From assembly GCA_015489365.1 (NCBI GenBank), contig WFZW01000065.1:1-42339 (forward strand): a DNA stretch of 42,339 nucleotides, in the 5' to 3' direction. The position numbers were made by a program, and so were the translations under genes. Shown here one piece after another: positions 17,983 through 40,704 of the stretch; position 1 is the first letter of the stretch; the number at the start of each line of letters is the position of its first letter. The notes beneath the pieces were generated by a model. The model saw only the letters and a program-made list of their open reading frames with translations, searched no databases and was not told where the DNA came from. The DNA comes from Deltaproteobacteria bacterium (lineage in GTDB: Bacteria > Desulfobacterota > Dissulfuribacteria > Dissulfuribacterales > QOAL01).

Positions 17983-20325
17983 TCAACGTATGCAGGCTGA
18001 GCGGACCTGCTTCAGGTCTGTTTCCCCGGTAAGCACCTTCCTGATGCCATCCTGTTTCAAGGTGAGCATACCATTTTCCATACCATGCTCCCTTATCTCT
18101 GCAACGCTCGCCTTTTTTTGAATGAGCTTTCTTAGGCCATCATTGGATACCAGCAACTCGTGGATTGCCATCCTGCCCTTATAACCAGTCTTGTTGCAAT
18201 GTGGACAGCCTGTGGGCTTGAACAGGGTGGCCCGCTCCAACAACCCTGGATCCAGGGGCTTGGATGGATTATGCCCATATTCATGGAGTATGAGTTCCTT
18301 TTCCTCGTCACTTGGGGTGTAGGCCGTCTTACATTTCGGGCATAGGCGTTTGACAAGCCTCTGGGCCAGGACACCTAGCAAGGCATCGGCGAAATTGAAG
18401 GGATCCATACCCATGCCGAGCAACCTGGTAACGGTTTCAGGGGCGGAATTCGTATGCAGGGTGGAAAAGACAAGGTGGCCTGTTAAGGATGCCTCGATTA
18501 CGGTATTGGCGGTCTCCTCATCCCTGGTTTCCCCCACCATTATCACATCAGGGTCGGCCCTGAGGAATGCCCTGAGTACCTTTGCAAAGGTGAGCCCTAT
18601 GGCAGGCTTGACCTGGACCTGCCTAAGTCCCTCCTGTACGATTTCAACCGGGTCCTCTGCTGTCCATATCTTTTTTTCAGGCCTATTAATGTATCCAAGG
18701 GCGGCGTGTAGGGTTGTGGTTTTACCTGATCCAGTTGGTCCTACTACCAGTATCAGGCCATATGGCATGCTAAGGAGCCTTTTCATCTCATTGAGGTTTT
18801 CCTCAAGTAGCCCCATCTTGTCAAGGGGCATGGCATCGGATGCGGCTAGTATCCTCAATACGATATCTTCATTGCCCTCGGTGGTAGGCAAGGTGGCCAC
18901 GCGTAGTTCAATAGTCCTGCCGGTTCTGGACCTGAACTTGATCTTGCCATCCTGTGGCAACCTTTTTTCCGCTATGTCCAGATTGGACATGATCTTTATC
19001 CTGGATACGAGCGCCCGTTTATAATTGAAGGGGATATTCTGGTATTTCATACAATCCCCATCGATCCTTAGCCTTACCAAGGCCCCTCTTTTCCCGGTAA
19101 GTGACTCAATATGGATGTCCGATGCATTTCTTAGGAAGGCATCCTCGATAATCTTATTGGCCATTTGTACGACGACGCTATCTGCATCGCTGGCGACATC
19201 TTCATCCTCTTCCTCTTCGGTTTCTTCATCTACTAGCTCAAGCTGTTCGAAGACATCCTCACCATCGCCTCCAACCGAATATTTTCCGTAGAAATAATCG
19301 ATGAATTTATCGATATCCTCCTTCAAGGCCACGGCAAATTCAAAATTTTTGGCCTTGAGTACCCTTCTAATATTATCTATTTTGGTTAGATCGTGAGGGT
19401 TGTCCAGTGCCACAACCAAGACGCCTGCTTCTTCCCTTATGGGGACACAGGCGTTGGAACGGAAGAAGTGTTCCTTTATCCCGTGAATGCAGGAAGGGGT
19501 CCCCCCGACCTCAAGTTCATCGAATTCCACGAATGGGCATCGGTAATATTCACTAAGGGAGCGTCCTATCTCTATGGTGTCAATGTCAAACTGGTTTATG
19601 AGTACATTCTCAATAGTCTTTTTGCCCTGCTTGGCCAGGGCCTTGGCCTGCTCTAATTCCTCTTCGGAGATTATCTCATTTCTTATGAGGTAATAGAATC
19701 TTCCGAATTTTTGAGCGGTTTGAGAGAGATCCTTGAGGCGTTGAGCCGCATTTCTAAATGATGGATCCAGACGGATGATCTGTTCTAGGGCTTCAAGTGC
19801 CTTGGTGACAGCTCCTGTTTTTTCATGGGTCAGGGCCAATTGATAGAGGATCTCCAACCGCTGATCCTTTGAGAGCCGATGGTCATCCAATGCCTTTTCT
19901 AGGTATTCCAATGCGTCGAAGGGCATATCAAGCTTCAAGTAGGATTGCCCTATTTTTGCCCTGATTTCACCTAGTCGGCGCCCGGCCTTCAGTAGGGATT
20001 TCAATTCGTCGATCGCCTCTGCAAGAAATCCGGCCTCTATAAGGCCCATGCAGTTATTATATTCCCGATCGAACTCGTCCTCTTCGGAGTTGGCAGTGGA
20101 ATCCGTTATGCCATTTTGCCGGTGGTCATCGGAATCGCCTTGGATCGCCTTGAGCTGTTCTTCGATCCTTTTTGACAGGTCACTGGGTAGATCATCGCCC
20201 ATCTCCCTCAGAATGTCCTCATAAAGGAGACGGGCCTCTTCCTTCAGGCCATGATGCAGATAGAGTTCTGCCTCTTGTAGTCTTTCTTCAAAGGAATTGG
20301 CAGCAGATAGCTGGCTATCAATCAT
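17983..20325 (-). CDS. GspE/PilB-type secretion ATPase with TPR-like N-terminal extension
   Basis: GPTGSGKTTTLHAALGYINRPEKKIWTAEDPVE, GETRDEETANTVIEASLTGHLVFSTLHTNSAPETVTRL, tetra-Cys CPKC...CPHC; N-terminal ~200 aa helical repeats. Confidence 0.9.
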   Translation of the reverse strand: MIDSQLSAANSFEERLQEAELYLHHGLKEEARLLYEDILREMGDDLPSDLSKRIEEQLKAIQGDSDDHRQNGITDSTANSEEDEFDREYNNCMGLIEAGFLAEAIDELKSLLKAGRRLGEIRAKIGQSYLKLDMPFDALEYLEKALDDHRLSKDQRLEILYQLALTHEKTGAVTKALEALEQIIRLDPSFRNAAQRLKDLSQTAQKFGRFYYLIRNEIISEEELEQAKALAKQGKKTIENVLINQFDIDTIEIGRSLSEYYRCPFVEFDELEVGGTPSCIHGIKEHFFRSNACVPIREEAGVLVVALDNPHDLTKIDNIRRVLKAKNFEFAVALKEDIDKFIDYFYGKYSVGGDGEDVFEQLELVDEETEEEEDEDVASDADSVVVQMANKIIEDAFLRNASDIHIESLTGKRGALVRLRIDGDCMKYQNIPFNYKRALVSRIKIMSNLDIAEKRLPQDGKIKFRSRTGRTIELRVATLPTTEGNEDIVLRILAASDAMPLDKMGLLEENLNEMKRLLSMPYGLILVVGPTGSGKTTTLHAALGYINRPEKKIWTAEDPVEIVQEGLRQVQVKPAIGLTFAKVLRAFLRADPDVIMVGETRDEETANTVIEASLTGHLVFSTLHTNSAPETVTRLLGMGMDPFNFADALLGVLAQRLVKRLCPKCKTAYTPSDEEKELILHEYGHNPSKPLDPGLLERATLFKPTGCPHCNKTGYKGRMAIHELLVSNDGLRKLIQKKASVAEIREHGMENGMLTLKQDGIRKVLTGETDLKQVRSACIR

Positions 20326-21997
20326 GTCGCCATGCCCTTAAAACAGATTTTACCGTGCACAGGGGAATGGTTTCCTCACCGTTTTTCAAGGTCCCTTCAA
20401 AGGGTCCCTTGACCTCCTGTGTAGGTTTCCATGTCATTTTCCGTGTGCCTTCACTTACAGGTTCAGTATCGGACAGGATCGTGATACCTCTTGAACCATC
20501 GTACATGATTGTCACGATCTTACAGGTACAGTTACCATCATTGTTACCTGCTCCGGCTATAAATTCAGGCTTGATCACAGGGAACTCGAATCGTTTCAAG
20601 ACGTCTTCATCGAGAGCAGCCAGTTGACCCTTGAGCAGGGGCCCTATTTTGGACCACGGCCATTTCTTCAGCCCCTTAAGTGGAAAGGCCGAAAGTGAAC
20701 CCAGCTTTCCCTTCATTGACCAGACCGGAGGACCATAGAAACACACCTCCTTGTCAGGAAAGGCAACCTTCTTTCCACCTAGGCTTATCAGCATAATCTT
20801 GTCCCAAGGTGGTGAAAGTGGCCTTTGTTCAGGGGTATCTGTTGGCATATCGAGGGCCGCAGTATCAGGGAGCCCCAGTTTCTTGCCTGTCAATTTAGCC
20901 AGACGTCTTGCCTCCTTTTCCAGGGTGGACCGTATGCCTTCCTGGAACCTGTGAAGCTTCTCCATCCCTGATGTATTTTTCAGGAGGATTTCTACAGGCA
21001 TTATCTTTTCTATGCACGAGACCAATACATCTAGGTGTTCGTCTAGGACGTGAAGGATCTCATCCTCAGAAGGTGAGGAGGCAATCGATTTAGATTCTGG
21101 TTTGGCTGGACCTTGTAGCTGGGTGGCAGTGTAGGGCAGGGATTCCTCTTTTTTATCACTTACAGATCCGGATTCTTGTGGGTTGTCTGGCATAGAAGAA
21201 AGGGAAGGGGGAGCTTGGACCGTATTGTTTCCTTCTCCATGGTTTTTTAGCTCGATATGTATATCCGTGGCCTTGGTGCCTGGGGTCTTTGTGGGTTCTT
21301 CATCTGTCTCCTCGGGCAGTTCCCCTTCCTTGAGTATCTTTTCAAGTTCCAGGGCAGTGGCATTTAACCCATCGGTCAAATCCTGTGGCAGCGCGGCCCT
21401 GTTGGCCTGAGGTAGTACTGACAGCTGTTTCAGGCCTTCGAGGCCCCTTTTTAATACGACTGGACTGCTGGCAGCTATCGTTTCTGGATGGTCTTCCATC
21501 CTGCTCAGGATATCAAGCATTAAGCGGATGAGGTGTCTGGCTTCGGCGATATCCTTGATGACGGGTTCCGTATTTATACCCTTCAAGGTATCGATTGCAG
21601 CCGCTACCTGCTCAGTGGTAATTTCCCATTCCAGTGTCGATAATTGTTGGTCCAGGGTATCGAGCAACGCGGACAGCTCATCCTTTTCTGCGCTGGTATC
21701 GGGTTTTTCCTCGATTTCGGGTTCGAGTTCTAGCTCGAGTTCCAGGAGGTTTTCCTCTACACCTTCTTCCCCCTTGGATTCAGACGACGGGGCTGGTGGT
21801 GCCAAGATGGAGGGTTCGAGATCTAAATCCGCCTCTGGGGTTATTTCATCGGGCGAGTTGTTCTCTGAGACCTCTTTGACCTCATTTGTCAGGGGATCGA
21901 TCTCTATCTTCCTGGAAGGTTTGAATAGATCATCAATGGTATCTTCGATTTCATCAGTAAGGATGTTGGGGTTGAGGGTATCTTTCTCTTCTGTCAT
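20318..21997 (-). CDS. Hypothetical acidic protein, coupled to the ATPase gene
   Basis: ORF overlaps the start of the ATPase gene by 8 nt; preferred start MTEEKDTLNPN at 21997 preceded by AGGGAG; no family recognised. Confidence 0.65.
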   Translation of the reverse strand: MTEEKDTLNPNILTDEIEDTIDDLFKPSRKIEIDPLTNEVKEVSENNSPDEITPEADLDLEPSILAPPAPSSESKGEEGVEENLLELELELEPEIEEKPDTSAEKDELSALLDTLDQQLSTLEWEITTEQVAAAIDTLKGINTEPVIKDIAEARHLIRLMLDILSRMEDHPETIAASSPVVLKRGLEGLKQLSVLPQANRAALPQDLTDGLNATALELEKILKEGELPEETDEEPTKTPGTKATDIHIELKNHGEGNNTVQAPPSLSSMPDNPQESGSVSDKKEESLPYTATQLQGPAKPESKSIASSPSEDEILHVLDEHLDVLVSCIEKIMPVEILLKNTSGMEKLHRFQEGIRSTLEKEARRLAKLTGKKLGLPDTAALDMPTDTPEQRPLSPPWDKIMLISLGGKKVAFPDKEVCFYGPPVWSMKGKLGSLSAFPLKGLKKWPWSKIGPLLKGQLAALDEDVLKRFEFPVIKPEFIAGAGNNDGNCTCKIVTIMYDGSRGITILSDTEPVSEGTRKMTWKPTQEVKGPFEGTLKNGEETIPLCTVKSVLRAWRHD

Positions 21998-22228
21998 AGT
22001 GTTTCTCCCTGAATGAAAAGGGATGACATCTGACCCAGATGAACGAGTCGTCCTTTTTCTTCCTTTTCCGTCCTTGGTCATCTTGTGCCTGTCCATAAAC
22101 GGTCTTTTCGCCTGATCTCGACATCATGGGGAAAATTTTATTCTTTGGGATACTGGCTACATGCCTATGGTAAAATTTTTCAGATGCCTTAACCTCGAGC
22201 GAAAATCCATTTTTCGATAGGCACCAGC

Positions 22229-22843
22229 TTATTTTGCCATCAGGTGCTTTCTGGCCACATGTCGAACCGTCAGTTTACTGATTGCCTTAAGTGTTTCAAA
22301 AACGCCCATGCCCTTGGTGGCTGCTGCCTCGAATGCCATTGTATGTAAGTGACTATTTAGATCCGATTCCAGTTCATCCAACTCCAATGTGGGAATCGGC
22401 GTACTTACGAGATCCCTCTTGTTGTATTGGAGGATGAGCGGGATTTCATTGAAACTTAAATTGTTTTCCATAAGATTTTTTTGTAGGTCCTCAAGGCTTT
22501 CTATGTTTTTCGCCTGCCTGACCCTCAGGGAATCCGCCACGAAAACCAGGCCATCAACTCCCTTGAGGACGAGCTTTCTGGTAGCTTCATAGATTGCCTG
22601 TCCTGGCACTGTATAAAGCTGGATTCGAATGTCGAATCCATTGACCTTCCCAAGATTCAATGGCAAGAGATCAAAAAATAAGGTGCGATCCCCCTTGGTC
22701 TCAATGGTGAGCATCTTGCCCCTGGCACGATCACTCATGGCGTTATATATGTAAAGAAGATTGGTGGTTTTCCCGCACCTGCCCGGTCCATAATAGACAA
22801 TCTTGCAATGGACCTCTTTTTTGCTCAGATCTATGAGGGCCAT
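22229..22843 (-). CDS. mglA: MglA-type small Ras-like GTPase
   Basis: CKIVYYGPGRCGKTTNLLYIY...LYTVPGQAIYEATRKLVLKGVDGLVFVADS...LQYNKRDL. Confidence 0.93.
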   Translation of the reverse strand: MALIDLSKKEVHCKIVYYGPGRCGKTTNLLYIYNAMSDRARGKMLTIETKGDRTLFFDLLPLNLGKVNGFDIRIQLYTVPGQAIYEATRKLVLKGVDGLVFVADSLRVRQAKNIESLEDLQKNLMENNLSFNEIPLILQYNKRDLVSTPIPTLELDELESDLNSHLHTMAFEAAATKGMGVFETLKAISKLTVRHVARKHLMAK

Positions 22844-22845
22844 AG

Positions 22846-23247
22846 CTAGTTGCAGATTCCAAAGACTTGCTCGATGGTTTTGATAAGTTGGGCTACCCTG
22901 ATCCTTACCAATCCCAATGAGACATCATCGCCAAATATGGTAATAAGTATCAGTGCTGAACCGATCCGGGCGAAATGGATACTGTCCTTTTTCCCCTTAT
23001 GAAACAGCAAAGAGAAGTCGTCTTCTCCTATGAGTTTTGCCATCTGAGAGGTGGCTCCGAAGTTTGCTGCTGCTAGGGCTGCCAGGGATGTGGTGTCGAG
23101 ATCATTACGTTTTTTCCCACAACTGGCGACTATGTTCCCAGCTTCATCAATGAGTAAAACCGTATGCACCCCGGCCTTGATCAAGGACTTGTCTATTTGA
23201 ATCTTTGCCTTTTCTAGAACCGGACCTGTAACTACTAAATCAGCCAT
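22846..23247 (-). CDS. mglB: Roadblock/LC7 domain protein (MglB-like)
   Basis: GVHTVLLIDEAGNIVASCGKKRNDLDTTSLAALAAANFGATSQMAKLIGEDDFSLLFHKGKKDSIHFARIGSALILITIFGDDVSLGLVR; 2 nt from mglA. Confidence 0.85.
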   Translation of the reverse strand: MADLVVTGPVLEKAKIQIDKSLIKAGVHTVLLIDEAGNIVASCGKKRNDLDTTSLAALAAANFGATSQMAKLIGEDDFSLLFHKGKKDSIHFARIGSALILITIFGDDVSLGLVRIRVAQLIKTIEQVFGICN

Positions 23248-23332
23248 GATTGATGGTCCCTGCCATGTTCAGGGGATCTTAAACGGGTCAGTAACCCTCT
23301 CCATACCCTGAAAAGTTATTACCTAAACCTTT

Positions 23333-23357
23333 TGCGGCCCGAGCGTTTGAGGCCGCA
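23333..23357 (-). promoter_or_regulatory. GC-rich hairpin upstream of mglB
   Basis: TGCGGCC-CGAGCGTTTGA-GGCCGCA, 7-bp perfect stem. Confidence 0.5.
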
Positions 23358-23639
23358 TCCGGGTCACGAGAACGAATAAATTGTCTTTGTATCCAAGGAA
23401 TAAAGTATATATCTTGGCTTCTGCCCCAGCCTTGAGGCAGGCTTGAAAATTGTCAACACCGTTAGTTTCGTTTTGTGTCCCACCATCGATCTACCCGACT
23501 TATCGGAAAGCTGAGGAAAAAGATAAAAGGGGATACCTCTATTCCCTCAAGTTCGTGACTTTTCCCGCCGATAATATGATAAACGTACGCACCTTACCTG
23601 CCTTTCGATTGGAAGGGGGGATCGGCTGTTCTGTGAATA

Positions 23640-23760
23640 TTTTTTATCCGAAAATGCATTTTTGATTAGCCATGGACACACAAGGACATACATGGACAAA
23701 GGCAAGATGTTCCCAGATATGCATTTTCATACTTCACTGTGTCCGTACTGGGAATGGCAG
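23640..23760 (+). repeat. Family B long repeat, copy upstream of the HDOD gene
   Basis: TTTTTTATCCGAAAATGCATTTTTGATTAGCCATGGACACACAAGGACATACATGGACAAAGGCAAGATGTT; matches 13178-13300. Confidence 0.8.
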
Positions 23761-23761
23761 T

Positions 23762-23818
23762 CATCGTGAAAATACATCTCTTGGATAAGGGCTGTGTATT
23801 CATATTAGGAGGTGCGAT
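23762..23818 (+). repeat. Family A element, 3'-truncated, fused to the family B repeat
   Basis: CATCGTGAAAATACATCTCTTGGATAAGGGCTGTGTATTCATATTAGGAGGTGCG. Confidence 0.75.
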
Positions 23819-23865
23819 ATTGATTGTATTGGTCACATGAGATTGATTGAGGGGGTTGCCATACC

Positions 23866-24717
23866 ATGAGCATATCCATGGCCAAGAGGCTGGATAAGGT
23901 GGAGGATTTGCCATCCTTGCCCCACACCTTACACAAGGTATTGGAGGGACTCGATAGCGTTTCTGCATCTGCTAAGACATTGGAAGGTATAATTCGTGAA
24001 GACCCGGTGCTTACTGCAAAGATACTCAAGATGGCCAATTCCCCTTTTTATGGAATCCAGGGCGAGGTAAGCAGCATAGCAAAGGCGGTTGTAGTCTTAG
24101 GTTTTGAAGAGGTTCGCAGTCTGGTGATAGGACTTTCGCTCACCGGAGCGTTTGGAGGAGACTTGGGGGTGGAAGAATTCGATGCCCAGAGCCTGTGGCT
24201 TCATTCCATCGGTGTTGCCAAAACGGCCCATATGTTGGCGACCCATGTGAATGGATGCGTGCCGGATGAACTGTTTACTGCAGGCATAGTTCATGATCTG
24301 GGGCGTTTTTTGTTGTGCCTGTATTTCCCAAAGGAATACAAGGTGATCCTTGGGCAGAAAAGGCAAAACGGTCTGCCTCTGTTCAAGGTTGAGGAATCCT
24401 GCGGGCTGAGCCATGCCGAGGCAGGGGCATATCTTGCAAAGAAATGGGCTTTGAGCGATATGTTGGTAAACGTGGTTAGGTATCACCACCATCCTGGTAG
24501 TGCGGGTACCTACTCCGTGCCGGCATCAATCGTCTTTTTGGCCGACGAATTGTGCCATAAATTAAAGATCGGCTGGGATGCTAAGGGTGAAATAGGCACG
24601 GTGTTGGTGCCAAAGGCACTGGGACTTGCCCCAGAGATAATAAAAAAGATTGCGCGTAAGATTAAGAAGGAAAAGGAATCCATAGAGGCTAGTTGGAGCA
24701 AGGTCCTGTCTGGATGA
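23866..24717 (+). CDS. HDOD domain protein
   Basis: DLPSLPHTLHKVLEGLDSVSASAKTLEGIIREDPVLTAKILKMANSPFYGIQGEVSSIAKAVVVLGFEEVRSLVIG. Confidence 0.92.
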   Translation: MSISMAKRLDKVEDLPSLPHTLHKVLEGLDSVSASAKTLEGIIREDPVLTAKILKMANSPFYGIQGEVSSIAKAVVVLGFEEVRSLVIGLSLTGAFGGDLGVEEFDAQSLWLHSIGVAKTAHMLATHVNGCVPDELFTAGIVHDLGRFLLCLYFPKEYKVILGQKRQNGLPLFKVEESCGLSHAEAGAYLAKKWALSDMLVNVVRYHHHPGSAGTYSVPASIVFLADELCHKLKIGWDAKGEIGTVLVPKALGLAPEIIKKIARKIKKEKESIEASWSKVLSG

Positions 24718-24813
24718 ATGTAAACATTCGACGTAGCAGGTGTCCCTTTGTTGAAAGGATAGCTGGCAGACGGCCTTGTTTTCACGGTTTAGGTTACAAG
24801 AAAAGGAGCCAGC

Positions 24814-25854
24814 TTGTCCATCGACAAAAATGCACCGATAAAGACCCTAATAGTTGATGATACTGCCTTCATGCGAAAGGCCCTTACTGAAATACTGTCA
24901 GGGCGCAACGGGATAGAGGTAGTGGGGGTAGCACGTCATGGTAAGGAGGCCCTGGAGATCGCCGAATCGCTTGACCCAGACGTTATAACCCTTGACGTGG
25001 ATATGCCTGTGATGGATGGTCTTACCACCATAAAACATTTAATGGTCAGGAAACCAAGACCTGTTGTCATGGTGAGCGGCTTAGCGGATCATGGCAATGT
25101 TACACTTGAAGCCCTCAGGTTAGGTGCGGTGGATTTCTTCCCCAAGCCCTCAGGTACGATTTCCCTTGACATGCATGAATCCGCCCATGGGTTTGCCAAG
25201 GTGGTGGCAAGGGCGTCAACGATAAATCTTGGTGCCATTCAGAGGGCTAGACTCTCACCAAGATGCGATAGCAAGCCTGTAGAAAAACGGCGACCTGAGG
25301 GGCTTCTCGTTCTTATTGCCCAGGAAGGTGCCAGTGCAAGTTTCATACGGCTCATTTTCAATATAGATCCATTGCACCCAATCTCCATAGTTGCCATCCA
25401 GGCAGTGGCATCTGGGGTCCTGTCATCCTTTTGCAACGCGCTAAACAGGATCGTTCCCTGGGAAATTACAATGGGAAACGGCGCGAAATTGCAGACCGGT
25501 ATGTGTTTTCTGGCAGGGGCAAATAGAGGTCTGCGTATTGTGGGCAATGGAGACGGACCAGCCATTGAAACACAAGATGGTGCAGATGCCTACCGTCCGT
25601 TCCTCTCGGAGGCTGTGGGGCTGTTTGGCCATCGCTGCATGATAGCAATCATGGGAGGGGCCGATGCCGTGGCAATGGAAGGACTTTCGAGGATCACAAA
25701 TAGTGGGGCCTCCATACTGGCCTTGTCACCTGATAGTTGTGTCTACGGACGTCTTCCCCGGGCAGCGATAGAGGCGGGTATAGCCAAGAGCGTGTATTCG
25801 GAAAGTGATCTTTGGAGGGAAGTTGACGCATTTGGCAGGAGGCTAGCTAGGTAG
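24814..25854 (+). CDS. Response regulator: receiver + degenerate CheB-like domain (paralog 1)
   Basis: Receiver IKTLIVDDTAFMRKAL...DVITLDVDMPVMDGL; C-terminal CheB-like fold without the triad. TTG start. Confidence 0.85.
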   Translation: MSIDKNAPIKTLIVDDTAFMRKALTEILSGRNGIEVVGVARHGKEALEIAESLDPDVITLDVDMPVMDGLTTIKHLMVRKPRPVVMVSGLADHGNVTLEALRLGAVDFFPKPSGTISLDMHESAHGFAKVVARASTINLGAIQRARLSPRCDSKPVEKRRPEGLLVLIAQEGASASFIRLIFNIDPLHPISIVAIQAVASGVLSSFCNALNRIVPWEITMGNGAKLQTGMCFLAGANRGLRIVGNGDGPAIETQDGADAYRPFLSEAVGLFGHRCMIAIMGGADAVAMEGLSRITNSGASILALSPDSCVYGRLPRAAIEAGIAKSVYSESDLWREVDAFGRRLAR

Positions 25855-25942
25855 CCTTGTTAATCAATGGGTTTTGGCAGGTTATCTGAGCCCTAACTAT
25901 CATGTATTGGCATTATTACCTATACAAAAAGGAAGGAAGGCG

Positions 25943-27016
25943 ATGACTTCTAGTTATGCTACACAGTGTAGCAAGAAAAGGATAAAGGTCCTTGTAGTTG
26001 ATGACTCACCCCTTATGTGCAGGGTGATAAAGGAGGCCCTCAAGGATGATGAACAAATGGAGGTTGTGGGACACGCATTAAACGGGCAAGAGGCCTTGGA
26101 AATACTCTCTGGGGGTGAGGTGGACGTATGCACCCTGGACGTCTATATGCCCGGGATGAATGGGCTTACCGTCTTGAAAAACATAATGATTCGATTCCCG
26201 CTGCCAACACTTATGGTTAGTGCATTTACTGCTGATGGCTCTAGGATCACCTTTGATGCCCTGAGATATGGCGCAGTGGATTTTTTCCAAAAACCAACCA
26301 GACAAAACGGTGGGGATATCCTGAAACAGGCCGCTGTGTTGCAATCGAGGGTAAGGCGCGCTGCAAGAACCCAGGTGGAGGCCGCTCGTTATCTGAGGCT
26401 AAAACCCATATCAGGTCCCGGATCTTCCAATGGCCATGCGGTCTATCCCTCCAGGGACCAGGCCGCCGTGATAATAAACGCTGGGACCGGTGGATATTCA
26501 TCCATTCTATCCCTTTTGCCAAATATGAAGGCCAGGCCCAGGGTACCTTTGATAGTCTCCATGGGAGTACCAGAAACCTGCCTTAATGCATTTCTGGAAT
26601 ATCTTAAGAAATACGTGGTGTTTGACCTGGTAAGGGCAGGCGAGAGGCAGTATCTGGATGCAGGGAAGGCCTACTTTTTGTGCTCAAATGAGGCGGCAAT
26701 CCTGGAGAAGGAAAACGGCAGGTATCTATTGGTGGTAAAGGACCATCAGGACCTGGCCAGCCATGAAGGCGCTATAGATTTGCTTCTGTTTTCAGCCAGT
26801 GAATATCTGGGCGAGGGCACCTTGTCGATATTTCTTTCTGGTGACGGGACCCATGGCCTGAGTGGGGCCAGGGAGGTGATCAGAAACGATGGCACCGTAT
26901 TGGTACAGCGGCCCGAAACCTGTCTTGCTCCGGAACTTCCACAGGCACTAATAAATGAAATCGACAGTGATATCTGTTCACTAAACGAACTTGCGGCCAG
27001 GGCATTTGCCTGGTAA
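25943..27016 (+). CDS. Response regulator: receiver + degenerate CheB-like domain (paralog 2)
   Basis: IKVLVVDDSPLMCRVIKEAL...VCTLDVYMPGMNGL; IINAGTGGYSSI, IFLSGDGTHGLSGAREVIRNDGTVLVQRPETCLAPELPQALI. ATG at 25943 preferred. Confidence 0.85.
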   Translation: MTSSYATQCSKKRIKVLVVDDSPLMCRVIKEALKDDEQMEVVGHALNGQEALEILSGGEVDVCTLDVYMPGMNGLTVLKNIMIRFPLPTLMVSAFTADGSRITFDALRYGAVDFFQKPTRQNGGDILKQAAVLQSRVRRAARTQVEAARYLRLKPISGPGSSNGHAVYPSRDQAAVIINAGTGGYSSILSLLPNMKARPRVPLIVSMGVPETCLNAFLEYLKKYVVFDLVRAGERQYLDAGKAYFLCSNEAAILEKENGRYLLVVKDHQDLASHEGAIDLLLFSASEYLGEGTLSIFLSGDGTHGLSGAREVIRNDGTVLVQRPETCLAPELPQALINEIDSDICSLNELAARAFAW

Positions 27017-27038
27017 CCGGCGATTGAAAGGTATATCC

Positions 27039-28478
27039 ATGGCCTTCGAGCTTGCAAATAACGGATCTCTGGGTGACCCTCTTATTTCAGAGGGCCATCA
27101 AGGAAGTTTTAAAGGTTGGCTTGAAGGTCTTAGTATGCCCGATATCGTTCAGCTGGCATGCCTTGGGGGGAAGGATTACGTCCTCGAAGCTGAAAGTGGT
27201 ACGCGCAAGGGCTTCATATACTTTTCATCTGGAGAGGTGGTACACGCTTCCACGGCATCATTGGAGGGACAGGATGCGTTCTTTGAGATGATGGCATGGG
27301 GTGAGGGAAGCTTTCATCTGGCGCCAGGCAAAACGGATCGGGTATCCATCGAGGTACCTTGGAACTTTCTTTTGATAGAGGCCCTGAGGCGTAGCGATGA
27401 GGACAGCAGTATTGAAGAAGAGCAGGGACCTACAAGGGTCTTGATCGTAGAGGACTCCAACATGGTCACCAAGGCCCTTAACAGGATATTGAAGGAAGAT
27501 CTCGGGGCCGAGGTCATAAAGATCGCAGAAAATGGTAAAGAGGCCCTTGACATCTTGGCAAACGAGACACCAGATCTTGTTACCCTGGATATCAATATGC
27601 CGGTCATGGGAGGAGATCTGACCTTAAAGCATATAATGGTCAAATCTCCTGCACCTGTCGTACTGATTTCAGGATACCGTGCGGAAGATTTTCCTAAGGT
27701 AATGGAATTCTTGCGGCTTGGCGCGGTAGATTTCATTGCAAAACCGGAAATAGGTGAAAACTGGGATGTGGTCAAGGAAAGACTGCGGAAGCTAGTGAAC
27801 CATGCCAAGGGGTTCAAGATCAAAAATATACGTAGGGCAAGACAGCCCAAGTCACCCCGGATAAAGGCAGAACCAGGGCTCCCTGCCGGCGAGCTGGTTA
27901 TACTCGTAGGTGGTGCCGGCGCCTTGCTGGAGATCCAGAAGATAATACCTGTCTTGTGCCAGAGGGTTCAAGGTTCCATAGTTGTATTTCAGGATATGTG
28001 CCACAATATCATATCGTCCTTTTCCTCCTATCTTGATAGGTATGCACGGCATACGGTTTTACCCCTAGGCGAGGGTGCCCCGTTGCTTAGTAATCAATGC
28101 TGGGTCACGGACTGGCAAGGTTCTTGGGAAATAATTTCCGATGACAACGGTGCAGCCATATCCCAGGTCCAGGCCAATAGCAGGCTTATCGATATGGAAA
28201 ATCTACTCATGTCATCGGCGAATATCTTTAGGGAAAAATTGACCGTTGTAATCCTGAGCGGGGCAGATATCGAAATGGAGATAGGGCTTGAGACCGTGAC
28301 CTCCCAGGGTGGCAGGATCCTGTTGCAGCTTCCAGAGACCTGTTTGTGCCCTCAGCCCATGGAAAAGATCAAGGCCATGGAACTTGAGGATGAATGTTTC
28401 GAGCCGGAAGGATTCCAGGATATGTTTTCAGGCCCTGGGCCTCTGGAAGACAGGCATGGCGAGGATAATCATGGCTAG
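27039..28478 (+). CDS. DUF4388-like N-terminus + receiver + degenerate CheB-like domain (paralog 3)
   Basis: GSFKGWLEGLSMPDIVQLACLGGKDYVLEAESGTRKGFIYFSSGEVVHAS; receiver TRVLIVEDSNMVTKAL...LVTLDINMPVMGG; CheB-like tail. Confidence 0.82.
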   Translation: MAFELANNGSLGDPLISEGHQGSFKGWLEGLSMPDIVQLACLGGKDYVLEAESGTRKGFIYFSSGEVVHASTASLEGQDAFFEMMAWGEGSFHLAPGKTDRVSIEVPWNFLLIEALRRSDEDSSIEEEQGPTRVLIVEDSNMVTKALNRILKEDLGAEVIKIAENGKEALDILANETPDLVTLDINMPVMGGDLTLKHIMVKSPAPVVLISGYRAEDFPKVMEFLRLGAVDFIAKPEIGENWDVVKERLRKLVNHAKGFKIKNIRRARQPKSPRIKAEPGLPAGELVILVGGAGALLEIQKIIPVLCQRVQGSIVVFQDMCHNIISSFSSYLDRYARHTVLPLGEGAPLLSNQCWVTDWQGSWEIISDDNGAAISQVQANSRLIDMENLLMSSANIFREKLTVVILSGADIEMEIGLETVTSQGGRILLQLPETCLCPQPMEKIKAMELEDECFEPEGFQDMFSGPGPLEDRHGEDNHG

Positions 28479-28836
28479 GGTATTGGTAGTAGAGGATTCA
28501 AGCTTCATGCGCAAACGGATAGCTAAGGCGTTAACAGATGCTGGTCACGATGTGGTAGGGCAGGCCCGCGATGGGGAAGAAGGTTACAAACTCTATCGAA
28601 AGATTAGGCCAGATGTGGTGGTCACGGACGTTACGATGAGAGGTGTGGATGGAATAGCCGGGGCACGGATGATAAGGGACTATGATCCTGAAGCACTGGT
28701 GATCTTCATGAGCCTCGTAAATGATCCTGCGGTAAGATCTGAGGCCGCAAGGATCGGCGCAGAGGGCTTTCTGGCCAAGGATCAGCATGACAGGTTGATA
28801 GAATTGATAGGTAATTGTTGTCGGAAGGCACGATAG
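28456..28836 (+). CDS. cheY: CheY-like single-domain response regulator
   Basis: MARVLVVEDSSFMRKRIAKALTDAGHDVVGQARDGEEGYKLYRKIRPDVVVTDVTMRGVDGIAG; start 28456 or 28471, overlapping the preceding CDS. Confidence 0.88.
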   Translation: MARIIMARVLVVEDSSFMRKRIAKALTDAGHDVVGQARDGEEGYKLYRKIRPDVVVTDVTMRGVDGIAGARMIRDYDPEALVIFMSLVNDPAVRSEAARIGAEGFLAKDQHDRLIELIGNCCRKAR

Positions 28837-28863
28837 ACATACCAGGATATCCCCGAGGGCGTT

Positions 28864-31605
28864 ATGAAACAATTGGATCAAGAAATGTTACAGGATTATG
28901 TGATCGAGGCACAGGAAAATTTGCAAGAGCTTGAACCCAACCTATTACTCCTCGAGCAGGAGCCTGAAAATATCCCCCTGTTGAATGATTGTTTTCGAAA
29001 TATGCATAGCATAAAGGGCGCAGCCGGATATATGGGTCTTGAAAGGACCAGCACCCTGGCCCATAGAATGGAAACACTATTTGACCAGGTGCGTCAAGGA
29101 AAGCGGCACCTGGATGAGGGGACAATGAATCTGGCCTTCGAGGCACTGGATAGGTTGAAGAGCCTTGTGGCTGATGTGGCTGAAAAGGGCAGGGAACTTA
29201 CTGATATTTCCAGTATGATAGCCAGGCTCGAAGGTCTGGAGGACGTCCCTGCTAGGCAGGATAGGCAGGAAGCTAGCCCTGTGGAGGATTCATCGGAAAA
29301 CATGGGGGATGACACGATAGTCGAAGTAGACGATGACCAGGAGTTGCTCTGTATATATAGGGACGAGATGAAGAATCTCTACGGAGAGCTTGAGCGTCTG
29401 GCAAACTCGCATGATGCCTCTCTTCATGCCATCAACGGCATTGTCAGGGACATGATAAGGGTGACCAACTATGTTGGAGACCAGGATTTAATGGATGCCC
29501 TGGAGGCCGTTGCTGGATCAATTGACGAGAATGCCACTGCCACTGCTGACAAGCTGGATGTATCAGATATTATCGAACGTATCCATATGATTATCGAAGA
29601 GGGACTCGACATATGCCTTGAATCAGGCCTAGATACATCTGAATCGCAAGATAAGATAGAAGAAGACGATGAATTATATGGGATTTTTCTTGATTTCGTA
29701 GCTGAGGTCTCGGGTCCATTGGCCAATGTCCCAAGTGATCCTGACGAGGAATGGCTTGAGGCATGCAGTAGCGCCATCGAACGCCTCAAGGCCTCGGCCC
29801 ATTATATGGATTATGGAGAGGTACTGGCGATATTAGATGAATGGGGCGAGAGATTAGCTGAAATATTGTCAGAAAGCGGGAATAGTGGAAAACTCGATAC
29901 TGCACCATTAAGAGAACTTTGGCACCGACTTCTAGATTTGCTTCCAGGTCTTTCGGCCAAACTGGATGCACAGGGGCCCGAACCTGGAATGGTACCTAAG
30001 GGTATGGAAAAAACATCAGAAGAAGGCCCCTCTGTAATGGAACTTGAAGAGGCTATCGACGACCTATTTGCCGATGTTGAGACAGGGGAATCGGATACCC
30101 CGTTTGCATCACAAGTCACCAGTAGCCCCTCTAAGGTGCATGAAGCAAGGATTGATCCCTCTAAGAGCGGGGAAGAGATCCCGCCCCAACCTGCCATCCA
30201 TGGATTACATGATAACGGTTCCGCGTCACAGGATGCCGCCAGGAAGGATTCTGCCAATTCTACAAGACCTCGCTCGGCATCCAAGGATCGATCATCAAGG
30301 GGGTCTCAACTTGTAAGAATCGACTTGAACAAGGTCGAGGGGCTTCTTGGGGATGTGGGGGAGCTAGTAGTCCTGCGCTCGGCACTTGTGCAGCTTTCCC
30401 AGGAGATCAAGGGGCTCTATGGCCAGTGGCTTGAAGGACATATCTTGAGTAGCAAGGAACTCAAGCCATTTAAGGGCATAATGGTCCGGCTGTCCGAGCA
30501 TACATCCGCACTGGGCAGGGTAGTCAACCAGTTGCAGGATGGGGTCATGAGGATGAGGATGCTTCCGGTGAGTAGGCTTTTCAACCGTTATCCCCGTATG
30601 GTTCGTGATCTGGCCTTGAAACTTGGCAAAAAGGTTGAGCTTGACATGGAAGGCCTTGAAACAAACCTAGACAAGAGGGTGATAGAACAGATGGCCGATC
30701 CCCTCCAGCATATCATCAGGAATGCCATTGGCCATGGTATAGAACCTCCTGAACTTAGAGAGAAATTGGGCAAACCTGCCGCAGGACGCCTTAGGCTTTC
30801 TGCTCACCAGGAGGGAAATTTTGTCGTTATCAGCGTGATGGATGATGGCAAGGGACTGGACAGGGCTGCTATCCTGGAGAAGGCTGTAAAACAGGGCATA
30901 ATTAATCAGAATATTGGGTTGTCGTTTACAGATGAACAGGTCTGGAACATGATCTTTTTACCTGGGATTTCTACTGCCAGAGAGGTATCGGAAACCGCAG
31001 GTCGTGGTGTAGGCATGGACGTAGTGAGGCGCAATGTGGAAAGGCTGGGTGGAACTATTACCCTCCGTTCACAACAGGGCCAAGGGACCGAGATTCTTAT
31101 CCGTATCCCGCTGACACTGGCCATTATAAAGGCCCTCCTTGTGGGTATTGGCGAGCAGGTAATGGCCGTGCCGCTTGCATCTGTAAAGGAGACATTCAGG
31201 ATCTATCCTGACGAAATCAGTTCCATCGAGGGTTACGAGATTATCTCTGTCCGTCAGGATACGCTGCCACTCATTCGACTGGCAAATGTCTTTAGAGGTA
31301 CCGGGGCCAGCGCCAACCCAGAGAAATTGTTCGTGGTCAGGGTAAAACAGGGTGATATAGAGGCCTGCCTCGGGGTAGAGTCATTAAAAGGCCAGCAGGA
31401 GGTGGTTATAAAGCCGTTGGCAGAATATCTTACGGATCAGCCGGGTTTCTCAGGGGCTACCATTTTGGGCGATGGATCTATTGCACTCATCCTGGATATT
31501 CCAGTGGTTCTCCAGCGGGCGAAGGAGTTTACCTTGCGGCGTCAACAGGTCATGGAACAGGCTTCGATGGACCTGGGGCAGGTTGCAAGCAGGCTCATAC
31601 ATTGA
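28864..31605 (+). CDS. cheA: Chemotaxis histidine kinase CheA
   Basis: Hpt NMHSIKGAAGYMGLERTSTLAHRMETL; HATPase DPLQHIIRNAIGHGIEPPELR, GRGVGMDVVRRNVERLGGTI; C-terminal CheW-like regulatory domain. Confidence 0.95.
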   Translation: MKQLDQEMLQDYVIEAQENLQELEPNLLLLEQEPENIPLLNDCFRNMHSIKGAAGYMGLERTSTLAHRMETLFDQVRQGKRHLDEGTMNLAFEALDRLKSLVADVAEKGRELTDISSMIARLEGLEDVPARQDRQEASPVEDSSENMGDDTIVEVDDDQELLCIYRDEMKNLYGELERLANSHDASLHAINGIVRDMIRVTNYVGDQDLMDALEAVAGSIDENATATADKLDVSDIIERIHMIIEEGLDICLESGLDTSESQDKIEEDDELYGIFLDFVAEVSGPLANVPSDPDEEWLEACSSAIERLKASAHYMDYGEVLAILDEWGERLAEILSESGNSGKLDTAPLRELWHRLLDLLPGLSAKLDAQGPEPGMVPKGMEKTSEEGPSVMELEEAIDDLFADVETGESDTPFASQVTSSPSKVHEARIDPSKSGEEIPPQPAIHGLHDNGSASQDAARKDSANSTRPRSASKDRSSRGSQLVRIDLNKVEGLLGDVGELVVLRSALVQLSQEIKGLYGQWLEGHILSSKELKPFKGIMVRLSEHTSALGRVVNQLQDGVMRMRMLPVSRLFNRYPRMVRDLALKLGKKVELDMEGLETNLDKRVIEQMADPLQHIIRNAIGHGIEPPELREKLGKPAAGRLRLSAHQEGNFVVISVMDDGKGLDRAAILEKAVKQGIINQNIGLSFTDEQVWNMIFLPGISTAREVSETAGRGVGMDVVRRNVERLGGTITLRSQQGQGTEILIRIPLTLAIIKALLVGIGEQVMAVPLASVKETFRIYPDEISSIEGYEIISVRQDTLPLIRLANVFRGTGASANPEKLFVVRVKQGDIEACLGVESLKGQQEVVIKPLAEYLTDQPGFSGATILGDGSIALILDIPVVLQRAKEFTLRRQQVMEQASMDLGQVASRLIH

Positions 31606-31645
31606 AAGTCCGGATCCATGGGGATTGAGGCCATGACAAGCAGGC

Positions 31646-34009
31646 CTATTTAAGCCCTTTCCTACCGATCTGTGTCATGATATCCATCATCATCCTGATA
31701 TGCTGGGCCTGGTCGATCCTCTTATCGGTAGCAATCCTTTCCCATAGGGATACATCAGACATGTATTTATGACATCCCATGCACGTCCCGCCCTTTCTCA
31801 TGGCATCAAGCTCTTGCTTATTAAATGCCCGACTCAATGGCCAATGCGTGCCAACGGTTACGAGCTGCGTGCCGTTTGCATCCAGAATCTTTGACCAGTC
31901 AAAGGTCAATTGAGGTATCGCTGGGATCTGAATCTGATAGTGACGAGGTATGATCTTATCCGTCCTGGCGTTCATTAAATCTTCTACTACGTTCTTGTCG
32001 TATCTTCCAAGTGTACCACCGGATATGCCGAGCCCCATTGCCTTTGGATCCACATGGCAGGATTCGCATGTGCGGGCCTGTCTCTGCACGGTATGGGGTT
32101 GAACTGGAGACATGTCGATTGCCAGGGGTACCCTTTTTTGGCCAATGAACCTTGCCTCATCCGGGCTCTTTTCAATCCGGTTGTGGACAAGGGTTTCCCC
32201 GTTAGGACCTATTACGGTATAAACTACCTGACATCCCGGCATGAGGGGGGATATCCTACCTTCGCCATTGTAGCCGATAATTGGCACCTCCCAGCGAAGA
32301 TAGGATCTTGATTCTGAAACCTTTCCCGGGGATTCAAGGCCGCTGGTACCAAGCGGGGCATCGGGAGTAGTCCCGTTTTCCATGTGGGCATTACCATTTG
32401 CAGTCCAATCGGTTCCCATGGGTATATGTCCTGCATTTGAGGCATAGCTCACCTTTACGTGGCAGCCATAACATTGGGGGACCCATGATGCATGGCAGCT
32501 ATAACATTCCATCTTGTCCATATGGGTCTTGACCGAGACCATGGCCGTTTTTGCCGACAGGGTCTTCCAACCGTTTCTTATGGCAATATCCTTCAACAGA
32601 GGGACCTTGAAATCCTGTCCCGTGGCAGAATGAAGTATTACGCTGTTGGACCTGCGGATGACGTTACCCAAGGGGTTTCCTCTGGCGCTAAGTATGAAAC
32701 CATCCTCAGGTGCATAGGGAAAGCCGAATTCGTCTTCGGGTCGATTCTTCTTCAGTCCTACACCCCTGGGCCTGTTATTCAAGATCTTTCCAGCTTCATC
32801 CCCGAAACCTATGGGCAACTCCCATGGATAATCCGTGGGGGTCCCGTGGCAATCGGTGCATTCGATTTCTACCTGTGCCAAGGTAGTCCCGGCGATGTTT
32901 CCATCACCATGAACATCGATACTGGTATGGCAATCCTGGCATAAAAGGCCCCCTTTTGGGTTTCCTTTTCGACTCCTGTATTGATGATGAAGGTCGTCAG
33001 AGATGAAAAGATAGGTTTTGGTATGGAGCTTCGGCTGTTTTTTGCCGTGCTTGTCATATGGAGATCCATATGGAAATTCCATCAGGCCCTGGAACGATAC
33101 ACCAATCCGTTTGCCACGGTTATGGCAGGTATTGCAGGTTTCTACAGGGATACCTCCTGTCCTCCTGGTACCAACCAGTCTGTGCTTCAATATGTGGCCG
33201 GGTTCAGTTTTGTCTATGCTTTTATCCTTACCCTCGTAATAGCCATCATTGGCATAAAGAATATGGCAGGCACTGCAACCCATTCCCCTATAATCGCCCC
33301 GCTTTTCCCTGCCACGTACTCCAACGTGACAGCGTTGACATTCATGGCGCTGATAGGTCAAGGCGGCCAAACGTGGGTCTCGTTTGATTTCATTGGGATC
33401 GGCAGAGGGGAGCCTGGTAAGGCTATGGGGATATTGCCTTGGATACTTACCGATCTGTAGCTGCATGTAGTCCTTGTATGCCTTGCTACCTACCATAGGT
33501 ACAGGGCCGTCGGTATCCTTTATTTCATAGTTGCCATAGGGTACTTGGCAGTTTCTAGTCTTCTTGAATCCCCAAGTATGTAAATTGCCTGAGATCTTTC
33601 CAGCTTCGGTGTTCATGAGTGAAAGTTTGACACGGCGGATATAACCTGGATGGCAAAGTCCACAGGTGTTTTGGGCGATCCATATGGAGCCGGGATCAGG
33701 GTAAAAGGTCTTGGGGCCTCCGGCATTTTCAAGGCCCTCTGGTGTACCGCTATGGGCAATGGACTTGACTGAGTTCTCCTTGGGATTGCCGCCATGACAC
33801 ACGACACACCCTGCAGGATCGTCATACTTCATCCCTAGGGCCTTGATGGAGCGGGCCATATTAGAATCAGGCGGCATTATATTCTCTATGCCTTGATGGC
33901 AACCCTTTGTATTACACGCTGCGGTAGCAATTTCGGCTAGCATGTAGGTGCTGGGCAAAAATAGCAATGCTATTGTTAAAATATGTAAAAAGTAAGCCCT
34001 CTTATCCAT
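31646..34009 (-). CDS. Multiheme c-type cytochrome (11 CXXCH plus one CX4CH)
   Basis: N-terminal signal-like segment; CNTKGCH, CVVCH, CGLCH, CQRCH, CSACH, CNTCH, CQDCH, CTDCH, CYSCH, CYGCH, CESCH, CMGCH counted by eye. Confidence 0.9.
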   Translation of the reverse strand: MDKRAYFLHILTIALLFLPSTYMLAEIATAACNTKGCHQGIENIMPPDSNMARSIKALGMKYDDPAGCVVCHGGNPKENSVKSIAHSGTPEGLENAGGPKTFYPDPGSIWIAQNTCGLCHPGYIRRVKLSLMNTEAGKISGNLHTWGFKKTRNCQVPYGNYEIKDTDGPVPMVGSKAYKDYMQLQIGKYPRQYPHSLTRLPSADPNEIKRDPRLAALTYQRHECQRCHVGVRGREKRGDYRGMGCSACHILYANDGYYEGKDKSIDKTEPGHILKHRLVGTRRTGGIPVETCNTCHNRGKRIGVSFQGLMEFPYGSPYDKHGKKQPKLHTKTYLFISDDLHHQYRSRKGNPKGGLLCQDCHTSIDVHGDGNIAGTTLAQVEIECTDCHGTPTDYPWELPIGFGDEAGKILNNRPRGVGLKKNRPEDEFGFPYAPEDGFILSARGNPLGNVIRRSNSVILHSATGQDFKVPLLKDIAIRNGWKTLSAKTAMVSVKTHMDKMECYSCHASWVPQCYGCHVKVSYASNAGHIPMGTDWTANGNAHMENGTTPDAPLGTSGLESPGKVSESRSYLRWEVPIIGYNGEGRISPLMPGCQVVYTVIGPNGETLVHNRIEKSPDEARFIGQKRVPLAIDMSPVQPHTVQRQARTCESCHVDPKAMGLGISGGTLGRYDKNVVEDLMNARTDKIIPRHYQIQIPAIPQLTFDWSKILDANGTQLVTVGTHWPLSRAFNKQELDAMRKGGTCMGCHKYMSDVSLWERIATDKRIDQAQHIRMMMDIMTQIGRKGLK

Positions 34010-34504: not shown

Positions 34505-34990
34505 ATGGAAAAAAACAAACCGGTTGAAAAGCACTTCATCCCTGCCTTAAGAGAGGGGGTGGATCTTGTAAGGATGATCCTTTTTGTGCGATTGAAGAGG
34601 TATCTGGCCGATAGATACCCGCATGAGGAATCTGGTTATATAGCCATGTTGTCAGGGGCTATGATCAATCGCCTTTTCGATACTCCAAATCCAGAGAGAC
34701 AATTTGCCGGGTTTGCAGCGGCAAATTCTGAACGGATCGAGAAGGAATTAGGTAATATTGCAACGGAATTTGCCGATCTGAGGATCCTTCTTACCGATGC
34801 CCTACGGATTCATTTTCTTTGCAATTATCAGGAAGACCTGGATAATGGAAACCAGGAAATGCTGAGCAGAGCCAGGGATTATGGCCTACTTATGGAGGAG
34901 CGGCCTGTGCCGCTGCCTAAGGGTTTTATGAATCTGGTCTATAGGGTTGGAAGGGCCTACGGGCTCATAAGATCCCAAGAAGATTCCTAG
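34505..34990 (+). CDS. Hypothetical protein, 161 aa, helical
   Basis: ORF with ATG after an element-bearing leader; convergent with fliW; family not recognised. Confidence 0.65.
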   Translation: MEKNKPVEKHFIPALREGVDLVRMILFVRLKRYLADRYPHEESGYIAMLSGAMINRLFDTPNPERQFAGFAAANSERIEKELGNIATEFADLRILLTDALRIHFLCNYQEDLDNGNQEMLSRARDYGLLMEERPVPLPKGFMNLVYRVGRAYGLIRSQEDS

Positions 34991-35463
34991 GGCTGATTAC
35001 AGGTTGTCGATGACACATGCAAGCCCTTTTTCAGGCGGATCTCAAATTGTACTGGATACCTCTTGGGATCTAGAACAAGCTGTCTTGCCAGCATATTCCT
35101 GCAATTGACGATGATGGGACCTAGTAGGTTGACCGTAACCTTGGGTGGTACATCACTTCTCTGTTTTCTTACGGTGACCAGGACCAACGTTTCTATGGAG
35201 TTGGTATCCCTTATATCCAAATCTTCAATGATTTCATCAGGGATGTTGAAGCTATAATCCGGACATACGAAGGCTGGATTAATGGTTATAAAGGCAAGTT
35301 CAGGCCTATCAATGCACTGTAACCAGGTAAACGGGGAGCCATCCCTGTGTGGAAGTAGTACAAAGCGTCTGTCTTCTTTGAAACCTGGTATACCTTGTTT
35401 GAAGGTGATTATCTTACTTTCATCTATTTCCAAGTTTCCAAAGCGGCTGGTATCGATTTTCAT
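34987..35463 (-). CDS. fliW: Flagellar assembly factor FliW
   Basis: MKIDTSRFGNLEIDESKIITFKQGIPGFKEDRRFVLLPH...PFTWLQCIDRPELAFITINP; next to csrA. Confidence 0.94.
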   Translation of the reverse strand: MKIDTSRFGNLEIDESKIITFKQGIPGFKEDRRFVLLPHRDGSPFTWLQCIDRPELAFITINPAFVCPDYSFNIPDEIIEDLDIRDTNSIETLVLVTVRKQRSDVPPKVTVNLLGPIIVNCRNMLARQLVLDPKRYPVQFEIRLKKGLHVSSTTCNQP

Positions 35464-35520
35464 AGCTGCGGCATCTTAAGAGCCTATTTTGTTTCCGTAT
35501 CCGTGTGGCCTTGTATGTAT

Positions 35521-35582
35521 GCGGTTCCAAGCGGCCGTTGGGCCCCTTTTCGTATCTTGAGTATTTGAAGATACAAGTTAAT
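35521..35582 (-). repeat. Family A element, degenerate
   Basis: Reverse complement TTAACTTGTATCTTCAAATACTCAAGATACGAAAAGGGGCCCAACGGCCGCTTGGAACC; internal stem GTATCTT/AAGATAC. Confidence 0.5.
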
Positions 35583-35689
35583 ACGTGTCATGTGACCACA
35601 TGTAGACAACAAATTTTTAGCTTTGATCTTGTGATCAGTTGGGCCTTTGCCCTGTAGGCCATCTCAACAGGCAATATTGGCAGGAAATC

Positions 35690-35770
35690 CAAACTTCCAT
35701 GCGGCCCGTACCTTAGTGCGCCCCCAATACATGAAGATACAGCCCATAGACTCTGTATTTTCACGGTAAA
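35690..35770 (-). repeat. Family A element directly abutting the csrA stop codon
   Basis: Reverse complement ATTTACCGTGAAAATACAGAGTCTATGGGCTGTATCTTCATGTATTGGGGGCGCACTAAGGTACGGGCCGCATGGAAGTTT. Confidence 0.9.
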
Positions 35771-36001
35771 TCAGGCATTAATCCTGAAGGGCAATTCGCT
35801 ATCTTCTATATCGGTAGTTGAGCTGGCAGCATTAATGTTTTCTTCTAATATCTTTTGCAAGACCTCTTCCCGGTATACTGACAGCCCCTTGGGGGCCTTT
35901 ATGCCAACGCGTACCTGGCGACCCCGTATTTCCAATATGGATATCTCTATATCGTCGCCTATTAGGATCTTCTGGCCTGACTTTCTTGCTAAGATAAGCA
36001 T
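35771..36001 (-). CDS. csrA: Carbon storage regulator CsrA
   Basis: [47 protein letters not shown]; start at 36001, where GGAGGG sits upstream. Confidence 0.97.
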
Positions 36002-36032
36002 GATGCCCTCCATGGCACTCGGGTACAGGGAT

Positions 36033-36050
36033 CTGCCAGGGCCCTGGCAG
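36033..36050 (-). promoter_or_regulatory. 18-bp perfect palindrome in csrA leader
   Basis: CTGCCAGGGCCCTGGCAG. Confidence 0.6.
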
Positions 36051-36086
36051 GTTATCTATCAACATGATAGCATTTCTTGTCTGGCC

Positions 36087-36170
36087 AAACCTTCATGCAG
36101 ACCATACCCCTTGGGTCGCACCCCTGACATGAAGATGGAACCCATGCGAGCCTGTATTTTCGGATAAACC
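36087..36170 (-). repeat. Family A element upstream of csrA
   Basis: Reverse complement GGTTTATCCGAAAATACAGGCTCGCATGGGTTCCATCTTCATGTCAGGGGTGCGACCCAAGGGGTATGGTCTGCATGAAGGTTT. Confidence 0.8.
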
Positions 36171-36227
36171 TTTATGCTGCATTCACAAGGTGCGTACTAG
36201 TATGTACGGCCACAGTACCTGTAGGTA

Positions 36228-37124: not shown

Positions 37125-37220
37125 AACTTGCCTCCGGCAATCTCTATACTGATAATCCCTGCAACATTTCTAGTAATCCATGCGCATAAATACGATACTT
37201 TATAGGTTGGATCCTTCTTT

Positions 37221-37286
37221 CCATGGGTGCGTTGCCAAGGATTGGGTACTTGAGATATGTCTTGGGTATGGGCCGCATAATGCCTT
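37221..37286 (+). repeat. Family A-like element, degenerate
   Basis: CCATGGGTGCGTTGCCAAGGATTGGGTAC...TATGGGCCGCATAATG resembles the 3' half of family A with an insertion. Confidence 0.4.
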
Positions 37287-37300
37287 AAGAAATCCTTCTA

Positions 37301-40120: not shown

Positions 40121-40704
40121 TAAATTCCACCATCCTGTTTTCCATGAAGTTGATTGATCTGGTATGAGCAGACCCCATGCCTGTACAGATCGCCCCGGAC
40201 CTGGGTGTTGACGCCTGGGCTATCGTGCCGGGCCCTTGCCGTGGTGCCGTTGTCTTTATCACCAGGTCGTGCATAGGTTGTGTAATTTTCGTGTCCCCTT
40301 TTACCACACAGGATTTCGATAAGCTGTCTCCCAAGATTCATCTCCTGCGTGATCCATTTCAGGGTTGCCTTGTTGGTCCTGTATGCCTGGGCCTTGGCAA
40401 GTTCCAGCCTTGTCTTCCAACGCGTGAATCTATCTACCTCCATGGGATGAAGGATATCCCTTAGTGCAACTAAGGAGGGCGTGTTATTTATCCCTCGATT
40501 CGTGAGTATTTGCCGGGCCAGGAAATCAAGATCCGATTCAAGCCCCTTGATCCTTTGTGCCAGCGCGTTCTTTGAACCGATGATGGTCCATAGGGATTTG
40601 AGATCTCTCGATAGCAGGATCTTCCTCTCCCTATCAAGGATGAGGTTTAGTTGTTGCCATGCCTTGAGGGTCTGATCACATAATATCCAAAATCTTTTGG
40701 GCAT
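40120..40704 (-). CDS. flgN: FlgN-like flagellar chaperone
   Basis: Position between flgJ and flgK; helical ERERKILLSRDLKSLWTIIGSKNALAQRIKGLESDLDFL; stop overlaps flgK start (TAATG). Confidence 0.65.
   Translation of the reverse strand: MPKRFWILCDQTLKAWQQLNLILDRERKILLSRDLKSLWTIIGSKNALAQRIKGLESDLDFLARQILTNRGINNTPSLVALRDILHPMEVDRFTRWKTRLELAKAQAYRTNKATLKWITQEMNLGRQLIEILCGKRGHENYTTYARPGDKDNGTTARARHDSPGVNTQVRGDLYRHGVCSYQINQLHGKQDGGI

Follow-up and report, generated by a model that had tools for sequence, protein, structure and literature searches.

Three tandem CheB-like response regulators without a methylesterase triad in a CheA gene array of the Dissulfuribacterales

The window, i.e., the whole stretch of 42,339 nucleotides analysed here, carries three consecutive genes, P1, P2, and P3, whose predicted products are response regulators with a receiver and a CheB fold, and which, judged by sequence, are devoid of the Ser-His-Asp methylesterase triad across the whole order Dissulfuribacterales. 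We consider it reasonably probable that these proteins are long-maintained CheB-fold pseudoenzymes that regulate a CheA pathway, with P2 and P3 as binding outputs, P1 as a competitor or phosphate sink, and MglA/MglB and a PilB-like motor as the targets. The array is located on contig C65 of a source genome of 2.49 Mb in 239 contigs. Its genes and those that flank it are the following:

17983–20325, minus strand: PilB/GspE-type ATPase with TPR and MshEN domains
20318–22096, minus strand: conserved acidic hypothetical protein without known domain, present in most loci, with 26–33% identity beyond the genus
22229–22843, minus strand: MglA-like small GTPase, divergent from the array
22846–23247, minus strand: MglB-like Roadblock/LC7 protein, divergent from the array
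23866–24717, plus strand: HDOD-domain protein, whose gene opens the array in most orthologous loci
24814–25854, plus strand: P1, receiver and CheB-like domain, with Gln, Ala, and Val at the triad positions
25943–27016, plus strand: P2, receiver and CheB-like domain, with Gly, Gly, and His at the triad positions and a new conserved Asp (SGD)
27039–28478, plus strand: P3, DUF4388, receiver, and CheB-like domain, with Gly, Asp, and Glu at the triad positions and the signature GGxGGLLEIQK
28471–28836, plus strand: CheY-type single-domain response regulator, sharing 8 bases with the 3' end of P3
28864–31605, plus strand: CheA histidine kinase with Hpt, dimerisation, ATPase, and CheW-like domains, and with the phosphoacceptor His and the N and G boxes intact

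The plus-strand genes, in the order HDOD-P1-P2-P3-CheY-CheA, are spaced by 96, 88, 22, −8, and 27 bases. The original prediction of three consecutive open reading frames with receiver and CheB-like C-terminal domains was confirmed by the frames in the sequence and by Pfam, in which P1, P2, and P3 match Response_reg (E values 1.2e-22, 6e-22, and 1.9e-20, respectively) and CheB_methylest (E values 4.7e-15, 4.1e-23, and 5.7e-13), all above the Pfam cut-off; the motif strings quoted with it are all present. The starts that it assigned to P2 and P3, at upstream TTG codons, are less probable than the ATG codons at 25943 and 27039, and the CheA gene, which it called adjacent, does belong to the locus, with the CheY gene intervening between P3 and CheA. 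It missed the N-terminal DUF4388 of P3, the conserved surroundings that include MglA/MglB, the PilB-like ATPase and the HDOD gene, and the triad-bearing outgroup P2 proteins described below. A Pfam domain search detected no receptor, CheW, or CheR gene in the locus, no Rfam match was obtained at 22000–32000, and a scan for promoters and terminators gave counts close to the shuffled expectation. A CheW-like C-terminus was considered for the hypothetical protein and dropped, as Pfam CheW was matched by one of 19 members, weakly (E value 0.018), and a CheW profile comparison returned a probability of 7%. A minus-strand gene downstream of CheA, at 31646–34009, encodes a large protein that, with its numerous CxxCH motifs, is probably a multiheme cytochrome c. 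Flagellar-looking genes (hook, FliW, FlgL, FlgK, and P-ring), which were named by eye and a few of which were also matched in one relative, are located on both sides of the array region, at 4149–8947 and 34987–42327.

The triad was read at reference positions S164, H190, and D286 in an alignment with the three ordinary CheBs that the genome encodes and Salmonella CheB (1A2O), and the claim that no triad is intact in P1–P3 was borne out. An intact triad is found in none of the 28 P1, 29 P2, and 29 P3 sequences of the order, and in all 41 ordinary CheBs aligned with them; the same loss in 86 of 86 array proteins, set against 41 of 41 with S-H-D, indicates that it is not due to chance. Paralogue-specific, near-invariant residues stand in place of the triad. 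In P1, Asp occupies the His position in 19/28 sequences. All 29 P3 sequences carry Gly in place of the Ser, and 17 of the 29 carry Asp in place of the His. The nucleophile position of P2 is Ser in 21/29 and Thr in 3/29, with Gly in the P2 of the window and its nearest relative; no P2 has His at the His position, where 21/29 have Gly, there is no conservation at the Asp position, and a new Asp is present at the M283 position in 27/29. Unlike the CheB methylesterases (PF01339), in which the stretches cRPxVD and TGMGxDG are conserved, P1, P2, and P3 have lost both. The CheB family HMM scores from 31 related genomes fall into two groups, in which no ordinary CheB is below 158 bits and no array protein is above 96 bits.

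The loss of the triads and the Pfam scores, low relative to those of ordinary CheBs, might be taken to mean that P1–P3 are decaying or mis-assembled CheB pseudogenes. This explanation is already refuted, since the frames are open, the gene order is the same across nine or ten families, and the dN/dS values against the nearest relative (G001) are well below 1, namely 0.15 for P1, 0.09 for P2, and 0.10 for P3. By these sequence-based measures, the array genes are under purifying selection and are not decaying. The receiver Asp, which had been described as kept in all three proteins, is present in all 86 array paralogues, and the receiver Ser/Thr and Lys are nearly invariant. The phosphoacceptor His and the N, G1, and G2 residues of CheA are found in 25/25 orthologues. 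The N-box of the CheA in the window reads RNAIGHGIE, with the usual Asp replaced by Gly in two of the 25 orthologues, this one included, and Asp in the other 23.

AlphaFold2 models of P1 and P2 were built from alignments of 28–32 sequences and have a mean pLDDT of 90 and 87, respectively. Superposition on CheB, a check that had been proposed together with the prediction, gave a match over both domains of full-length 1A2O, with a TM of 0.85 for P1 and 0.82–0.84 for P2. The CheB fold is thus assigned by model in P1 and P2, which match both 1A2O and 6YMZ, and by sequence profile only in P3. With a receiver joined to a CheB fold, a matching arrangement of these two domains in the models, a phosphorylatable Asp, and a CheA nearby, the array proteins resemble CheB methylesterase; they differ from it in their occurrence as three tandem copies, in a locus without CheR or receptor, and in the DUF4388 extension of P3. 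The description of the three proteins as phosphorylation-controlled pseudoenzymes is well supported by the triad loss, the receiver residues, the purifying selection, the CheB fold, and the adjacent intact CheA. Their proposed role as binding outputs or phosphate sinks is still something that we infer, and the evidence differs by paralogue.

Mean identity in the receiver and the CheB-like domain is 73% and 26% in P1, 68% and 41% in P2, and 54% and 34% in P3, compared with 64% and 63% in ordinary CheB. Such an excess of receiver conservation in all three paralogues, together with receiver active-site residues that hardly vary, would suit a role of P1–P3 mainly as phosphate sinks that drain CheA or compete with CheY, the CheB-like domains being structural leftovers. 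However, these domains are still under purifying selection (dN/dS, calculated from domain dN and dS, of about 0.23, 0.12, and 0.09 in P1, P2, and P3) and contain the near-invariant residues particular to each paralogue, and a pure sink needs neither them nor DUF4388. We therefore regard it as unlikely that all three are mainly sinks. The sequence comparisons suggest, rather, that the function of P1 resides mostly in its receiver, and that of P2 and P3 in their CheB-like domains. The far greater conservation of the P1 receiver fits a sink or competitor, and the low identity of its CheB-like domain speaks against tight constraint on a binding surface in this protein; the CheB-like domains of P2 and P3 are more constrained, and their new paralogue-specific conserved residues fit binding outputs.

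A search for the three-gene array in other genomes, which had also been proposed, recovered 28 further arrays, which are spread over nine or ten families of the order. Nearly every locus compared among the relatives has P1-P2-P3 along with CheY and CheA, arranged as in the window, and the block that begins with HDOD is usually divergent from a MglB-MglA-hypothetical-PilB-like ATPase set, which was scored where the contig extends far enough. The array is missing from about a quarter of 41 genomes, and one genome, G020, has two (L047 on C37 and L048 on C244). The carriers are a group of sulfur-metabolising bacteria of vents and hot springs. Dissulfurimicrobium hydrothermale Sh68, a cultured member of the Dissulfuribacterales, is described as motile and has a polar flagellum (PMC8780430). 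MglA and MglB adjoin the pathway genes in most array loci for which upstream sequence is available, and MglA is present in 29/30 genomes with the array versus 7/11 without it. Its presence in these array-less relatives, and its location on a different contig from the array in G028, indicate that MglA is independent of the array and that the link between them is one of proximity only. It is from this gene proximity that MglA/MglB and the PilB-like motor are inferred to be the output target. The type II/IV secretion ATPase family has six strong matches in the genome, including the one in the window and two that adjoin each other on contig C67.

Outgroups were sought in the contig collection genome_contigs and in 297 genomes of the phylum. 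Array-related genes were identified in other Desulfobacterota and in Gammaproteobacteria, among them Candidatus Venteria ishoeyi. In the trees, P1, P2, and P3 form three separate groups, each with outgroup members and apart from the ordinary CheBs, although some deep nodes have low support. On this phylogenetic evidence, P1, P2, and P3 are three old lineages that reach other Desulfobacterota and some Gammaproteobacteria. In several outgroup clusters, the genes of a receptor and a CheW adjoin those of CheY and CheA; P2 occupies one end of the cluster, and P1, in some cases together with P3, the other. P1 is followed in outgroup clusters by the gene of a ParA-like ATPase that has a zinc-ribbon domain (L098:9361–10308 and L169:3383–4324). 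MglA/MglB was not recognised among the neighbours of the outgroup clusters except in L101 and L103, on contigs labelled Thermosulfurimonas and Thermodesulfatator, where P2 and P3 with CheA adjoin MglB-MglA.

Three outgroup P2 proteins (L169, L175, and L172) have a complete Ser-His-Asp triad; none of the P1 or P3 proteins examined has one. The retention of all three residues in these outgroup proteins makes it probable, as far as the sequences tell, that P2 arose from an enzyme-like ancestor and that its triad was lost in the order of the window. Genome G305 encodes both a triad-bearing P2 (L172) and a triad-less one (L171). These three outgroup proteins, and the frequent Ser or Thr at the nucleophile position of P2 with its new Asp at the M283 position, also lend something to the possibility that P2 retains some hydrolase activity via a rearranged site made up of these two positions. 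This seems very improbable given that the His position is never His, the Asp position is not conserved, and Ser itself is replaced by Gly in the window and the nearest relative.

The source genome encodes three ordinary CheBs and four CheRs. A receptor of 796 aa and a CheW of 159 aa are paired on contig C46 (L184:1245–4146). When four receptors of the genome were compared with the receptor of the outgroup cluster L170, the one on C46 matched best (31% over 833 aa, 354 bits), the other three having at most 112 bits; it is therefore the candidate to serve the array CheA. An orphan CheR on contig C10 was considered as a further pathway member and left out, not being the best match to the outgroup-cluster CheR. 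A receptor could also be what the array proteins bind. The preserved fold and domain packing, and the position of the genes beside receptor and CheW in outgroup clusters, would allow the CheB-like domains to bind chemoreceptors without cutting, as methylation-site shields or as tethers to the receptor array. The cRPxVD and TGMGxDG stretches of ordinary CheB are, however, gone from all three proteins, and the locus has neither a receptor nor a CheR gene, so we think this role improbable.

In the pathway that we favour, with P1–P3 as pseudoenzyme regulators, the C46-encoded receptor and CheW would activate the array CheA, which would in turn phosphorylate CheY as well as P1, P2, and P3. As in ordinary CheB, phosphorylation would shift the receiver off the CheB-like domain, and the face thus uncovered would bind a partner, with no demethylation of receptors. 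P2 and P3 are most likely to be the phosphorylation-gated binding outputs, and P1 more probably serves as a competitor or phosphate sink that works mainly through its receiver. As targets, the MglA/MglB switch and the PilB-like motor encoded next to the array would be likeliest, and the pathway may control how type IV pili are polarised or how active they are, perhaps steering surface movement.

In Pseudomonas, the ChpB protein has the ordinary methylesterase function, and homologues of the receptor, CheW, and CheR are encoded within the Pil-Chp operon. The array locus is without these genes, and its CheB-like proteins are triad-less. It has in common with the Pil-Chp system of the type IV pilus a CheA with several response regulators and a PilB-type motor gene nearby, and PilG and PilH of Pil-Chp are antagonistic response regulators (PMC10519157). 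In Myxococcus, the Frz system reaches MglA/MglB through the response regulator RomR, which works by binding (PMC3441718). The array likewise combines a CheA-type kinase and response regulators with an MglA/MglB pair as likely target; it differs in its CheB-fold outputs, which the text consulted on Frz-RomR does not describe, and in a link to MglA that is positional only. The array CheA has no Pfam receiver match, whereas the Frz kinase, FrzE, is a CheA-receiver fusion. Frz-RomR and PilG/PilH are precedents for non-enzymatic outputs of a CheA-type pathway. In the open-licence literature, searched as full text with the hits read mostly as titles and abstracts, DUF4388 occurs in one paper, and no report of CheB-fold pseudoenzymes in an array was found.

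It is conceivable, though we would not count on it, that these genes represent a distinct chemosensory class, present in the Desulfobacterota and in some Gammaproteobacteria, for which the CheB fold gave rise by duplication to three lineages and passed from adaptation enzyme to phosphorylation-gated adaptor, with coupling to MglA/MglB and the type IV pilus motor in the Dissulfuribacterales. The P2 lineage, with triads intact or lost in related genomes, offers a ready comparison of enzyme and pseudoenzyme, for which the triad-complete outgroup proteins would be useful as enzyme-state controls. CheB is the textbook response regulator with an enzymatic output. If our reading is true, the CheB fold can also provide an output that is gated by phosphorylation without being enzymatic. 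Chemosensory pathways would then include a further class, concealed by gene annotation because P1, P2, and P3 all match the methylesterase family.
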